DNA of 64,000 nt. Origin: Candidatus Limiplasma pullicola (GTDB lineage Bacteria > Bacillota > Clostridia > Christensenellales > Aristaeellaceae). The translations under genes and the position numbers were made by a program. Of this stretch, positions 54,129 to 61,011 are shown piece by piece. A model generated the notes under the pieces. It was not told the origin of the DNA and did not search any database. It saw only the letters and a list, made by a program, of their open reading frames with translations. Location: assembly GCA_018710985.1 (NCBI GenBank), contig DVIV01000030.1, forward strand, positions 62,001-126,000, given 5' to 3'. Every line of letters begins with the position of its first letter. Within the stretch, counting starts at the first letter, position 1.

Positions 54129-54217
54129 GCGGCGGGCAGGAATCTTCCCCTCTTTTGTCGAATACAAGGCGGAAACCGTTTCCCGGTCCGCCGGGCAAGC
54201 TGCCAAAGGGGATAAAC

Positions 54218-55207
54218 ATGGCCAAACTCTATTTCCGCTACGGAGCGATGGGCTCCTCCAAGACCGCCAACGCCATCATGGTGCAGTACAACTACCGCGA
54301 GCGCGGCCAGAACGCGCTCCTTCTCAAGCCGCGCCTCGACAGCCGCGATGGCGAAAAACTGGTCGGCTCGCGCTCGGGGCTGTGCGCGCCCTGTGAATTT
54401 GTCGAGGACCTTCCCGGCATCGACCTCAGCCTCTACGATTGCCTCATCGTCGATGAGGCGCAGTTCCTCACCAAGGCGCAGGTGGAGCAGCTCGTGGACA
54501 TCGTGGACGGGCGCGGCATCCCCGTCATCTGCTACGGTCTGCGCGCCGACTTTCAGGGCAACCTCTTTGAGGGCAGCCACTGGCTGTTGGCCTGGGCGGA
54601 CACCATCGAGGAGATCAAGACCGTCTGCTGGTGCGGCCGCAAGGCCACCTGCAACGCCCGCGTGGCAAACGGCAAGGTGGTCAAGGCCGGGGAACAGATC
54701 GTCCTTGGCGGCAACGAAAGCTACGTCGCCCTCTGCCGCAAGCACTGGAAGAACGGCGAACTGGCCCCGGAGGAGATCCGCCGCATCGCCGCCGGCAAGC
54801 GCGAATACCTGCCGCTTTTGCTCGACGCCGACCCCAGTGAGGCGATGATCGACCGCTATCTGGACGCGGGCGACATGTACGTGCTGTTCGCCCATGGCCG
54901 CGCCGTGGCCGAGGCCGTCATCACCCGCCGCGAGGACGGCTGCGAACTGAAAAACCTCGCCACGGAAAAGGACGCGCGTGGAAAAGGCTACGCCACGCGC
55001 CTGCTCATGCACCTGTTCCGCCTGCTGGCCGCGGAGCATGAGCGCATGTACGTCGGCACCTGCGAGGACCTTCTGCCCTTCTATGAAAAACTGGGCTTTG
55101 AATACGCCTGGACCGCGCCGCACTTCTTCCGCGACAACTACCCCGGCGTGACCTTTGAAGAAGGCGAATTGGACGACATGACCTATCTTGTGAGGACGCT
55201 GCGATGA
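54218..55207 (+). CDS. tdk: thymidine kinase fused to a GNAT acetyltransferase
   Basis: 329 residues. Residues 1-195 are a complete type II thymidine kinase: P-loop GAMGSSKTA (9-17), Walker B DEAQ (79-82), FQGNLFEGS (substrate region), and zinc ligands Cys137, Cys139, Cys173 and His176. Residues 200-329 are a GNAT domain with the acetyl-CoA loop ARGKGYATRLL (253-263) and PFYEKLGFEYA (287-297). The kinase salvages thymidine; the partner domain's acceptor is unknown. AAAGGGG precedes ATG 54218. It overlaps gtrA by ATGA. A fusion of these two is not one I know. Confidence 0.88.
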   Translation: MAKLYFRYGAMGSSKTANAIMVQYNYRERGQNALLLKPRLDSRDGEKLVGSRSGLCAPCEFVEDLPGIDLSLYDCLIVDEAQFLTKAQVEQLVDIVDGRGIPVICYGLRADFQGNLFEGSHWLLAWADTIEEIKTVCWCGRKATCNARVANGKVVKAGEQIVLGGNESYVALCRKHWKNGELAPEEIRRIAAGKREYLPLLLDADPSEAMIDRYLDAGDMYVLFAHGRAVAEAVITRREDGCELKNLATEKDARGKGYATRLLMHLFRLLAAEHERMYVGTCEDLLPFYEKLGFEYAWTAPHFFRDNYPGVTFEEGELDDMTYLVRTLR

Positions 55208-55668
55208 TCAAAAAGCTCTGGAACAACGAGCGCCTGCGGGAGATCTTCCTTTACTGCCTCGTGGGCGGGCTGACCACGGTGGTCAACTACGTGGTCTACT
55301 TCCTCTTTACCCGTCTGGTGGGCGGGGAGGGGAGCAGCCCCGGCCTTGCCGCGCTGATCATGGACGACAGTTTCCAGAACGTGGGCCTGATCGTCGCCGG
55401 CACGCTGGTTGCCTGGCTGGCGGCGGTGGCCTTCGCCTTTTACCCCAACAAGCGCTGGGTGTTCAAAAGCAAAGGCGGCAATGTCAGGCGCGAACTTGCC
55501 CAGTTCCTCTCCGCGCGCGTTCTCTCTCTGGTCATGGACGTTTTGCTCATGCTGCTCTTCGTGGGCGCGTGGCGCATGAACGACATGCTCGCCAAGCTCA
55601 TCGTGCAGGTGGTCGTCATCGCCGCCAACTACTTCGCCAGCAAGTTCTGGATCTTCAGGCGGCGCTGA
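55204..55668 (+). CDS. GtrA-family membrane protein
   Basis: 154 residues with four helices: FLYCLVGGLTTVVNYVVYF, a second after the loop, AFAFYPNKRWVFKSK between helices 2 and 3, and ANYFASKFWIFRRR at the C-terminus. The WVF and FWIF ends are GtrA hallmarks. GtrA proteins are thought to flip undecaprenyl-phosphate-glucose, so it could serve the GtrB/GtrII cluster at 11069-16920, about 39 kb away. It is coupled to the thymidine kinase fusion by ATGA, an odd partner. Confidence 0.88.
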   Translation: MIKKLWNNERLREIFLYCLVGGLTTVVNYVVYFLFTRLVGGEGSSPGLAALIMDDSFQNVGLIVAGTLVAWLAAVAFAFYPNKRWVFKSKGGNVRRELAQFLSARVLSLVMDVLLMLLFVGAWRMNDMLAKLIVQVVVIAANYFASKFWIFRRR

Positions 55669-55709
55669 AAAGGGGCGGCGTTTCCCCGCTGTGGTGGAAA
55701 CGCCGCCCC
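55668..55709 (-). terminator. terminator after the five-repeat protein gene
   Basis: A perfect 14-base stem (GGGGCGGCGTTTCC at 55672-55685, GGAAACGCCGCCCC at 55696-55709) and, on the minus strand, TTTTC. The T run overlaps the gtrA stop codon. Confidence 0.75.
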
Positions 55710-55737: not shown

Positions 55738-56562
55738 TCAGACCGCGTCGCCCCCGAGCGTATAGGCGATGACGGCCAGCAGCTCCACGCAGCGGTAGGA
55801 ACCGTTGACGGTCTGCTGCGGCGCGCTTTCGCAGGCGGCCTCGTTGGCGGAAAAGCGCTCGAGCGTGCCGGAGATGACGTCCGAATAAAGTCCGGCTGTA
55901 TCCAACTCATAAGCGATGATGGCCAAAAGCTCCACGCAGCGATAGGAGCCGTTGGCGCTCTGCTGGGGCGCGCTCTCGCAGCGCGCGTCGTTCTGGGAGA
56001 GCAGATCCAGCGTGTCGCCCACCAGAGAGCCGTAGAGACCGCTGGTATCCAGTTCGTAGGCGATGATGGCCAGCAGCTCCGCGCAGCGGTAAAAGCCGTT
56101 GGCGCTCTGCTGGGGCGCGCTCTCGCAGCGCGCGTCGTTCTGGGAAAGCAGCTCCAGCGTGTCGTCCACGAGAGGACCGTAGACGCCGCTGGTATCCAAT
56201 TCATAAGCGATGATGGCCAGCAGCTCCGCGCAGCGGTAGATGCCGTTGGCGCTCTGTTGGGGCGCGCTCTCGCAGCGCGCGTCGTTGCTGGCGAAGGTAT
56301 CCAGCACGTCGCCAATGAGGTCTCCATACGCGCCCTCATCGTCCAGCCTGTAGGCGATGATGGCCAGCAGTTCCACGCAGCGGTAGACGCCGTTGACGCT
56401 CTGCTGGGGCGCGCTCTCACAGCGCGCGTCGTTGCTGGCGAAGCGGTCAAGCACGTCCTCTACGAGGGAGCTATACGACTGCGCGTGGCCGGTGGTCAGC
56501 AATGTGAGCGCGAGCAGGATGGAAAGGGTCAGCGCCGCGAGGCGGCGAAAGCGGATGTTCAT
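55738..56562 (-). CDS. secreted protein of five tandem 49-residue Cys-paired repeats
   Basis: 274 residues: a 29-residue signal (MNIRFRRLAALTLSILLALT, cleaved near GHAQ), then exactly five 49-residue repeats and nothing else. Each repeat reads Y..L....LD..S.NDARCESAPQQS.NG.YRC.ELLAIIAY.LD, with two cysteines 14 positions apart, so each unit could hold one disulfide. Units 2, 3 and 4 are nearly identical; unit 5 is the most diverged. I do not recognise the family. AAAGGAGG precedes the ATG, and a perfect-consensus promoter drives it, so it may be abundant. A peptide- or ligand-binding outer surface role is speculation. Confidence 0.8.
   Translation of the reverse strand: MNIRFRRLAALTLSILLALTLLTTGHAQSYSSLVEDVLDRFASNDARCESAPQQSVNGVYRCVELLAIIAYRLDDEGAYGDLIGDVLDTFASNDARCESAPQQSANGIYRCAELLAIIAYELDTSGVYGPLVDDTLELLSQNDARCESAPQQSANGFYRCAELLAIIAYELDTSGLYGSLVGDTLDLLSQNDARCESAPQQSANGSYRCVELLAIIAYELDTAGLYSDVISGTLERFSANEAACESAPQQTVNGSYRCVELLAVIAYTLGGDAV
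55741..56475 (-). repeat. five in-frame 147-bp tandem repeats
   Basis: The units are 56329-56475, 56182-56328, 56035-56181, 55888-56034 and 55741-55887. The middle units are most alike at the DNA level, so the array probably grew by unequal crossing over. Confidence 0.85.
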
Positions 56563-56608
56563 GGATGGCCTCCTTTGTATCCAAGCGTGTTTTCAAGCCC
56601 TCAACATG

Positions 56609-56637
56609 ATTATAAAGAATGTGGCGAAATATGTCAA
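56609..56637 (-). promoter_or_regulatory. perfect-consensus SigA promoter for the repeat protein
   Basis: Minus strand: TTGACA (56637-56632), 17 bases, TATAAT (56614-56609), all twelve bases consensus, about 47 bases before the ATG. Confidence 0.88.
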
Positions 56638-56687: not shown

Positions 56688-56717
56688 TTGACACGCTTCC
56701 GCCCGGTATGTTATACT
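56688..56717 (+). promoter_or_regulatory. strong promoter for the OadB-like gene
   Basis: TTGACA (56688-56693), 18 bases, TATACT (56712-56717) with the extended -10 TG at 56709-56710. Confidence 0.82.
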
Positions 56718-58367: not shown

Positions 58368-60089
58368 TCAGGCGATGCGCTCCGCCGAGAGCGTAACCGA
58401 GGCGTTGGCTGCGGTGTCGGCGATGTTGATCGCCGCGGAACTGGTCAGGCGCACCAGCGTATCCGCGCCCGCCACCAGCAGCGCCTGACCGCCAAAGGTG
58501 GCGCTCTGGCCCGCTCCGGCGCTCTTCACGGCGTGGACGACGCTGGAAAGCAGCGTCTGCTCGTTGGCCTGCAATCGCAGCACCGTGTCGATGGCGGCCT
58601 GCTCCGGCACGAACACCGTGTAGCGCAGAAGATACGTGCCCGCCTCGCGCAGCGTCAGCGCGTTCTGCGAAAGCGCGTAGTCCTCCGCCGGTTCTGCCAG
58701 CAGCGTGGAGAGCGTCAGCGCGCCATCAGTTGCATCGTTGCGCAGTGAGCCGAGCTGATAGGCCAGCGCCGCCGTGCCCTTGCCAGCCGGGCCGGCCGGG
58801 CCGGTGGGACCTGCGGGGAGCACGAAGTCCAAAAGCCCCTGCCGCTCGTCGCCCGCGTCCCGCACACTGGGCGCGCCGTCCGGGCCGGTGATGCTGATGG
58901 AGCGCACAGCCAGACTGCGGCCGGAAAGGCCCATCGCGCCCGCTGGCCCGGTCGGCCCGGTGGGACCCGTGGGGCCGGTCGGCCCTTCATCGCCCTGCAG
59001 GCCCTGTGTGCCAGCGGTGCCCTGCGGCCCGGTGGGACCCGTGGGGCCGGTTGGTCCCGTGGGGCCTTCGTCGCCCTGCGCGCCTGCCGAACCCGCTGGT
59101 CCTTCAGATCCGGCCGGCCCGGTCGGCCCAGTGGGTCCTGTTGGCCCGGTCGGCCCTTCTGCGCCGGCAACGCCCTGTGCGCCGGCAGGACCCGTGGGGC
59201 CGGTAGGACCCTCGTCGCCCTGCGCGCCCTGTGTGCCGGCAGTGCCCTGCGGCCCGGTCGGTCCTGTGGGGCCGGTGGGGCCCGTGGGGCCCGTGGGGCC
59301 GGTGGGTCCCTCGTCGCCCTGTGCGCCGGTCGGCCCGGTCGGTCCTGCGCTGCCCTGTGCGCCAGCAGGGCCGGTCGGCCCGGTGGGACCCGTCGGTCCA
59401 TCGGAAGGGCCAGTGGGTCCCGTGGCTCCTGTGGGGCCGGTCGGCCCTTCTGCACCCGCTGCGCCGGTCGGCCCGGTGGGTCCGGCGACGCCGGAAGGCC
59501 CTGTCGCACCGGTCGGCCCGGTGGGTCCGGCGACGCCGGTCATGCCTGCGGGGCCGGTCGGTCCAATCATGCCAGACGGCCCGGTCGCGCCCATGACGCC
59601 CTGCGCGCCGGTGGGGCCAGTCAGGCCGATGGGGCCGGTCGGCCCGGTCGCGCCCGTGGGGCCCATGACGGTGACGAGATTGTAGTCCGCGGAGGAGCCG
59701 GGCGTGCCCGTGGGGTCGTTGATGTCGGCCTGATAGAGGCTGCCATCGTAAAACACCAGATCGCCCATCCTGTAAGAAGCCCCGGCGGCAAAGGGCTGCA
59801 GCGTTTCCAGACCCTCGCCCTGCGCGCCGGTCGGGCCGGTGGCGCCGGTGGGGCCCGTCGCGCCCGTCAAACCGACGGCGCCCTGCGCGCCCGCGGGGCC
59901 GGTGGGGCCAGTCGGGCCAGTCGGGCCGGTGGGGCCGGTCGCGCCGGGGCCGGTGGGGCCGGAAGGGCCGGAAGGCCCGCAGCAGCAACAGCCATAGGGG
60001 ATGGGGCGGCAGCTGGATTGACAGCAGCGGCCCGCCGCGCGTAGACCGCCGCCGGAAGATGTGTTATAATAATAGGAGTTGGGAAGCAT
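58368..60089 (-). CDS. collagen-like (Gly-Pro-Thr) surface protein, BclA-like
   Basis: 573 residues. A short Cys-rich head (CCQSSC, then four cysteines in a row at 34-37) precedes Gly-X-Y repeats mostly GPT (about 38-92); an inserted domain (about 93-143, [21 protein letters not shown]) looks like a carbohydrate-binding CBM5/12 strand unit; then a long Gly-X-Y tract to about residue 435 and a C-terminal BclA/C1q-like domain (about 438-573). No signal peptide is visible, as for exosporium proteins that are added in the mother cell. The ATG at 60089 has GAGGTG at the right spacing. BclA-like trimeric filaments coat spores in relatives. Confidence 0.82.
58785..59980 (-). repeat. DNA repeats coding for collagen-like Gly-X-Y triplets
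   Basis: Repeats of nine-base units coding GPT, GAQ and variants. The tract is broken once, by the CBM-like insert at about 59660-59815. Such arrays expand and contract readily. Confidence 0.85.
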
Positions 60090-60119
60090 CGACATCACCT
60101 CATCATCCTTGCTTCCCTG

Positions 60120-60147
60120 CATCGTATGCCGCCGCGTCGGGGGGAGT
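60120..60147 (-). promoter_or_regulatory. candidate SigmaK-like promoter for the collagen-like gene
   Basis: Minus strand: AC (60147-60146), 17 bases, CATACGATG (60128-60120), close to the SigmaK form AC-N16/17-CATANNNTA. The motif is short and GC-rich sequence could match by chance. Confidence 0.4.
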
Positions 60148-60171
60148 GCGGCGCGCCCTGGGGAGGAGATC

Positions 60172-61011
60172 ATGAAAAGAGGTTGGGGGATCGCCCTGTT
60201 CTGCATCTGCTTTTGCGCGCTTTTGCTCGTCTGCGCCCTCTGGCGCGGGCTGACGCTGCGCTTTTATCGCCTGGAGACGGACAAACTCACCGAAGACGCG
60301 CGCTTGCGCATCGCCCTGCTCACCGACCTGCACAGCGCCGTCTACGGCGAAGGCCACCGCGAGCTTCTCGACCTCGTGCTGGATCAGCGCCCGGACGCCA
60401 TCCTTCTGGGTGGCGACATCGTTGACGACGTGGCGCCGCTGGAAAACGCCCTGTCCTTCTTCGAGGCCCTTTCCCGCACCGGCATCCCCGCCTACTACGT
60501 CTCCGGCAACCACGACCGCTGGCGGCCGGACTTTGAAGATGTTCTGGAGAAGATTGAAGGTTACGGCGTAACCATACTGGAGGACGGCGTGCTGCCGCTG
60601 AACACCCCGTGGGGGCAGGTGAACCTCTGCGGCCTGCGCGAATACCGCACGGCGGAGGAATGCGCTTCCGCCCTCGCCGCCGCCTTTGAAAGCCTCTCCC
60701 CGGATGCTTACAACATCCTCCTCGCCCATCGCCCGGACTACATCGACCTCTACCGCCAGTATCCCTTCGACCTCGTGCTGTCCGGCCACACCCACGGCGG
60801 GCAGGTGCGCATCCCCCTGCTGGTCAACGGCCTCTTCGCCCCCGATCAGGGCTGGTTTCCCCAGTACGCCGGCGGGCTTTACGAGGTGGGGGAGACCTCC
60901 CTCGTCGTCAGCCGCGGCCTTTCCTACTACCCGCGCCTGCCGCGCGTGTTCGATCCGCCCGAGGTGGTGGTCATAGATGTCGAAGGAACGCGCAAAGCCG
61001 CGCAATCTTAA
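60172..61011 (+). CDS. membrane-anchored metallophosphoesterase (YkuE/YaeI-like)
   Basis: 279 residues: one N-terminal helix (about 4-22), then a calcineurin-type phosphoesterase with the five blocks [29 protein letters not shown] and SGHTHGGQ. Relatives include YkuE and lipid A or UDP-sugar hydrolases on the outer face; the true substrate is unknown. GGGGAGGAG precedes ATG 60172. It is divergent from the collagen-like gene by 82 bases; a TGTTATAAT extended -10 at 60062-60070 could serve it. Confidence 0.9.

Follow-up and report, generated by a model that had tools for sequence, protein, structure and literature searches.

The systems closest to the protein family described here come from protein design. 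sc-CC-5 (PDB 8QKD) is a five-helix, left-handed, de novo single-chain parallel barrel, and it bound no dye, according to the sections of PMC11288890 used here. Those sections state that a search by the designers through the PDB, AlphaFold2-Swiss-Prot and coiled-coil models of 48 proteomes brought up almost no natural counterparts of their barrels other than YhiM and some similar proteins (PMC11288890). YhiM of Escherichia coli is the natural AlphaFold model singled out there as closest to the designed parallel barrels, and it has five central helices, but it is a putative inner-membrane protein (PMC11288890) and is likened to our family by description only. Left-handed closed alpha-toroids were also designed, since none had been reported before, and those of Doyle et al. 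(2015) have 3, 6, 9 or 12 repeats, according to the part of PMC7734218 used here. Like the fold proposed below, these toroids are described as closed rings of left-handed helical repeats; none was recognised among the best 50 matches of either of our PDB searches. Their units are reportedly shorter and their holes wider than those of our family. In the prenyltransferase-type alpha-alpha toroid (PF00432) helical hairpins form a closed ring, as in the proposed fold, but we rejected this identity because the model was absent from the window-protein matches and matched only 3 of 27 family members (best E 0.019). Among the open-licence papers listed in literature searches, no natural left-handed closed toroid and no such proteins in Christensenellales were recognised.

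The window, by which we mean the whole 64,000-nucleotide stretch of DNA analysed, carries a gene that the first-pass annotation had placed at 55738-56562. These coordinates are correct; the gene is read from the minus strand, with its ATG at 56562 and its stop codon at 55738-55740 (Table 1). The annotation had described the product as five equal 49-residue units and nothing else after a signal peptide, and both statements are borne out: residues 29-273 are exactly 5 x 49 and are filled by the five units. At a shift of 49 residues the protein has 146 identities in 197 positions, against a maximum of 32 in 1000 shuffles (shifts 20-129). The units are 0.66-0.86 identical to each other in DNA, and mismatches at the third codon position outnumber those at either other position in nine of ten unit pairs, with a tie in one. 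Because the mismatches concentrate at third positions, we conclude that the repeat is kept at the protein level.

Table 1. Features of the five-repeat gene and its flanks, in window coordinates.
Feature	Position	Strand	Basis
Gene for predicted secreted five-repeat protein (274 aa, P0001)	55738..56562	-	Open frame starting at an ATG behind an RBS; 36 further genomes of the same family have relatives
Predicted signal peptide, residues 1-27, probable cleavage after Ala27 (HA|QS), no lipobox	56482..56562	-	By eye: three Arg, then hydrophobic core
Repeat unit 1, residues 29-77, helices 30-47 and 51-73	56332..56478	-	AlphaFold model, unit profile, unit DNA comparison
Repeat unit 2, residues 78-126, helices 80-96 and 100-122	56185..56331	-	AlphaFold model, unit profile, unit DNA comparison
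Repeat unit 3, residues 127-175, helices 129-145 and 149-171	56038..56184	-	AlphaFold model, unit profile, unit DNA comparison
Repeat unit 4, residues 176-224, helices 178-194 and 198-220	55891..56037	-	AlphaFold model, unit profile, unit DNA comparison
Repeat unit 5, residues 225-273, helices 227-243 and 247-270	55744..55890	-	AlphaFold model, unit profile, unit DNA comparison
Promoter TTGACA-17 bp-TATAAT, 12/12	56609..56637	-	Consensus scan and shuffles
Ribosome-binding site AAAGGAGG, 6 nt before ATG	56569..56576	-	Read from sequence
Terminator-like hairpin, UUUU tail, separating the five-repeat gene from the GtrA-family gene that converges on it	55668..55709	-	Folding

The signal-peptide-like start suggests that the protein is exported. 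Similar starts are seen by eye in the complete relatives except one (L049), and in the AlphaFold model of the window protein the predicted signal peptide has low pLDDT. The mature protein is acidic (pI about 4.05), free of lysine and 26.5 kDa in mass. No LPXTG motif, SLH domain or lipobox was found in it by eye and by Pfam scan. The earlier suggestion of a surface or secreted protein is thus best narrowed to a secreted one, because no surface anchor is seen.

On balance, we read the protein as belonging to a natural, novel and unnamed family of secreted, closed, five-hairpin barrels. Five identical two-helix hairpins would fold into a closed ring, in which helix 2 of each unit, carrying QQxxNGxYRxxE, would supply one of five parallel helices of an inner barrel, and the five copies of helix 1 would wrap it from outside. 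The conserved residues would form a hydrogen-bond network that sets the geometry of each unit, which is more likely than a catalytic site because they are found in all five units. The window protein would work like sc-CC-5, which is likewise a single chain with five inner helices joined by outer helices. sc-CC-5 differs in being artificial, 281 residues long and 12-15% identical to our models; its core was built from a designed coiled-coil seed, whereas the natural units have a conserved polar motif and the protein a signal-peptide-like start. As to function, we tentatively suggest an extracellular binding protein that would hold a small ligand or an ion within its narrow five-fold channel or at the channel mouth. 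This idea is weakened because sc-CC-5 bound no dye, its channel apparently being too narrow, as far as the sections used from that paper go (PMC11288890).

The main interest is that an unnamed natural family appears to use a barrel plan so far known mainly from design. We advance with reserve the stronger claim that this could be the first natural example of a soluble, left-handed closed barrel in which a single chain supplies five parallel inner helices, a plan so far described only from design. Evolution in gut Clostridia would then have kept the unit number at five even as the units within many of these proteins were homogenised. If the natural family has the same five-helix plan as the designed barrel, the fold would be shown to be within reach of evolution. 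The relatives, 30-64% identical to the window protein, would supply diverse sequences for learning the rules of the fold, and a simple system for asking how unit number stays fixed while units homogenise. QQxxNGxYRxxE would serve as a signature for proteins named by no library searched here.

The first-pass annotation could not assign the protein to any family, and this is borne out: in scans of Pfam and NCBIfam, the window protein fell below every curated cut-off listed. For the 27 members scanned, 25 of 130 Pfam and 25 of 49 NCBIfam families are listed, with E-values taken without cut-offs. Among the families listed, ElaD_SseL-like_N was the most widely matched (13 of 27 members, best E 1.2e-4), and the best single values were scattered (gmhA, 5.3e-9 in one member; HTH_23, 3.5e-8 in two). 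We read these scattered matches to known families as probably reflecting repeat-inflated scores. Sequence homology to Pfam, NCBIfam, PHROGs and PDB entries was rejected, the matches being below cut-off for the window protein or scattered among members. A phage protein identity was likewise rejected: phrog_36150 and phrog_36895 match only 8 and 9 of the 27 members, and the best stretches that they match in the window protein span 26 and 9 residues. A PHROG match with an E-value of 1.7e-18 is made of five matched stretches, the best of 26 residues, and is present in 8 of the 27 members. We also rejected a mobile or phage origin, as searches of phage records, plasmids and viral contigs found no relative.

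Relatives occur in 37 of 308 genomes of the same GTDB family (own genome included) and in 19 of its 50 genera, at one or two copies per genome. The distribution is patchy, with none in the 16 other genomes of the window genome's own genus. Searches at higher ranks found relatives in 6 of 396 genomes of the order, own included, and in 1 of 381 genomes of the class and 1 of 398 of the phylum, each time the own genome only; at most six candidates were scored per genome in the order and phylum searches, so remote relatives may be missed. The sole match of the order search outside the GTDB family is a 62-residue, one-unit frame in one genome (G507). The family is found mainly in one GTDB family of gut Clostridia, which record names suggest to be of the Christensenellales type. 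Its 26 named loci include Clostridia from water deer, roe deer, goat, sheep, water buffalo and rabbit (sources are given for part of them), as well as Candidatus Pullichristensenella avicola, whose genus NCBI places in Clostridia incertae sedis, and one Christensenella sp.

Some relatives depart from the simple plan. The protein at L049:4184-5413 lacks a signal peptide and has five units followed by a charged tail of about 170 residues, coiled-coil-like by eye, for which Pfam gave no match at E 0.01. Another, at L031:1042-2307 (minus strand), has five units and a C-terminal extension of about 150 residues. One relative (L038) lies on a contig of 503 kb whose record bears the name Murimonas intestini DSM 26524 but carries a contamination mark. 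The L049 and L038 genomes also carry five-unit members.

The claim of a perfect promoter was confirmed: all 12 consensus bases are present at 17-bp spacing (56637-56609). It is the only 12/12 promoter with a spacing of 16-18 on either strand of the 64 kb, and this score was never reached in 200 single-base shuffles of the 160 bases upstream of the gene. A 12/12 promoter also stands upstream of the relatives L038, there at spacing 18, and L046. Counting that of the window gene, 26 upstream regions were scanned, and 6 of them match at least 11 of 12 bases at a distance of 34-48 nt from the start codon; three of the other 20 (L037, L044 and L055) have p of 0.05 or less against shuffles, and 17 are above. 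The mean score over all 26 regions is 9.2, against 7.8 for shuffles. The promoter suggests strong expression of the window gene, so that the protein called abundant in the first-pass annotation is probably well expressed, judged from a 12/12 promoter shared with L038 and L046. The terminator had been described as clean. Its hairpin (55709-55672) has high predicted stability, the folded stretch of 61 nt reaching -41.4 kcal/mol (z -8.0), but the U-tract is only UUUU, which is why the hairpin is absent from the consensus scan list (5 T in 8).

The gene stands alone, with a GtrA-family gene convergent to it and a gene for the beta subunit of a Na+-transporting decarboxylase divergent from it. Ahead of the latter is a divergent near-perfect promoter at 56688-56717 on the plus strand, with 11/12 bases, spacing 18 and a TG preceding the -10. 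Some 50 bp separate it from the promoter of the five-repeat gene. Neighbour clusters are common only to close relatives, such as the window and L046, its closest relative, which share the locus, as matching flanking clusters indicate. No conserved neighbour was found beyond close relatives, with open-frame calling in GC-rich genomes that is crude and could miss a small partner. No orthologous site was found either in the 16 other genomes of the genus, whose best matches to GtrA are only 29-40% identical.

In a different role, the protein would bind no ligand and would serve the cell surface or the extracellular matrix as a rigid and acidic building block. A strong promoter and a very regular, repeat-only product would suit such a structural or coat protein, and the L042 relative lies in a run of small proteins with signal-peptide-like starts. 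The protein has no visible anchor, SLH domain, LPXTG motif or lipobox, however, and one or two copies per genome with a patchy distribution (0 of 16 other genomes of the genus) speak against it. We regard this role as rather unlikely, although nearly as likely as the binding barrel. In the L042 run (L042:4059-9654), several of the small proteins share a repeated 'GxYxVGEDIPAG'-like stretch.

Structure prediction, which had been proposed as a check, gave five helical hairpins for two members. The AlphaFold model of the window protein (from an alignment of 25 proteins) has ten helices in five hairpins after the signal peptide, with pLDDT 91.1 and pTM 0.86. That of a mature relative (L056), which is 34% identical to the window protein and has cysteine at neither of the two sites discussed below, reaches 95.0 and 0.93, though AlphaFold confidence on repeats can be too high. 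For both models 8qkd ranks first in the Foldseek PDB search with probability 1.00: TM is 0.48, E 0.035 and rmsd 6.2 A for the window model, which includes the signal peptide, and TM is 0.67/0.59, E 0.018 and rmsd 5.1 A for mature L056; both E-values are weak. No match to the PDB with E below 0.001 was found for either model, a search of the viral structure library gave none below that value, and no natural structure among the best 50 matches of either PDB search exceeds a TM of about 0.27. Next by TM in the L056 search are designed chlorophyll-dimer proteins (0.38-0.40), considered by name only. The right-handed nine-repeat toroid 6xr1 scores 0.24 and the right-handed design 8qag 0.23, against 0.67 for left-handed 8qkd, with the reservation that 8qag has six inner helices. 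At the level of models, then, one chain with five hairpins matches the sc-CC-5 plan (TM 0.67).

Tandem two-helix units most often form open solenoids. The five hairpins could accordingly be an open alpha-solenoid of the TPR or Sel1-like kind, whose concave face would bind a peptide or polysaccharide and in which five would simply be an inherited length. Designed armadillo and helical-repeat proteins do appear in the L056 fold list, and one member (L046) has four units. Those designs have TM values of only 0.16-0.24, against 0.67 for the closed 8qkd, and no TPR or Sel1 model is found among the window-protein matches or the 25 of 130 families listed for the 27 members. The end units of an open solenoid are expected to be capped by polar residues; here no polar end caps are seen, and the hydrophobic positions of units 1 and 5 are those of units 2-4. 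We consider an open solenoid unlikely.

A closed ring is instead argued for by the absence of end caps and by five units in 33 of 34 single-frame members. Together with the TM values, these arguments, each of them indirect, suggest that closure of the five-hairpin barrel is likely; left-handedness is probable. Hydrophobic residues surround helix 2 almost completely, the largest gap being 80 degrees, and are confined to one face of helix 1, where 260 degrees are free of them; helix 2 therefore likely lies inside and helix 1 outside. Which stripe of helix 2 would face the lumen is ambiguous, because the stripe of variable residues (unit positions 27, 31, 34, 38, 41 and 45) also has heptad spacing.

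The unit count was made with a unit profile. Of 31 distinct single-frame members, 30 gave five units and one gave four; three more divergent paralogues also have five, the fourth unit being weak, which gives the total above. L010 is a duplicate of L007, and all of L034-L059 except L035, L038, L049, L057 and L059 repeat L001-L033 and were counted once. L015/L040 ends with its contig inside unit five and was scored as five. Relatives with a broken frame (L008/L011 and L019), those truncated at contig ends (L033/L057 and L059), the degenerate L102-L104 (four units, two units and none reported) and the matches in G166, G298, G301 and G308 were left out. Two frame-broken relatives show remnants of five units. 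The four-unit member, L046/L002 of Ca. Pullichristensenella avicola (L046:7923-8588), contains a 59-nt exact internal repeat, and both a real loss and an assembly collapse are possible.

Units are on average 0.59 identical within a protein, against 0.39 for units of the same index in different proteins. The nearest unit (n = 134) is in the same protein for 62, at the same index of another protein for 52 and at another index of another protein for 20. Mean within-protein identity ranges from 0.22 to 0.91. This pattern indicates some within-protein homogenisation of units, but not everywhere. Family genes carry exact DNA repeats of up to 110 nt, which should make unit number drift, yet five is held. 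A constant five despite recombinogenic DNA repeats fits a ring that closes only with five; L046, with four, speaks against such a ring unless its assembly collapsed.

The most constant residues of the 134 units (27 members) are Gln25 (84%), Gln26 (94%), Asn29 (93%), Gly30 (97%), Tyr32 (95%), Arg33 (91%) and Glu36 (87%), and 106 of the units carry QQxxNGxYR exactly. In some branches the motif is degenerate, as five members keep it in no unit (L007, L009 and L032) or in one only (L006 and L030).

The cysteines that the first-pass annotation called invariant are so within the window protein (five of five units at each site) but not across the family. Ten cysteines in register behind a signal-peptide-like start would suit a small secreted or surface protein of Cys-paired, disulfide-stabilised units. 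Yet of the 134 units, 44 have cysteine at site 1 and 26 at site 2; just 11 have it at both, and 5 of those 11 are the window protein's own. It is the only one of the 27 members with both cysteines in every unit; 12 have none at either site. In the model, Cys48 lies just before helix 2 and Cys62 eleven residues into it, which by helix rise would place them roughly 16-20 angstrom apart, too far for a disulfide within the unit. Site 1 is most often Ala and next most often Cys, and site 2 is chiefly Thr, Cys, Ser or Ala; this alternation points to packing positions. Disulfide bonding as the organising principle was therefore dropped, and we judge it very improbable.

A secreted antagonistic factor, bacteriocin-like or pore-forming, would agree with the patchy distribution, with a small helical protein of predicted export and with helical toxins in the fold lists (though at TM 0.14-0.20), but is highly unlikely for an acidic mature protein with no membrane segment by eye and no conserved immunity-like neighbour.

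Two other genes near the locus deserve mention. At 58368-60206 (minus strand) lies a gene for a long collagen-like protein with GPTGPTG repeats and a Cys-rich start (Pfam Collagen, E 2.4e-42), which recalls exosporium or surface collagen-like proteins. At 54215-55207 (plus strand) a thymidine kinase and a GNAT acetyltransferase domain are fused in one frame.
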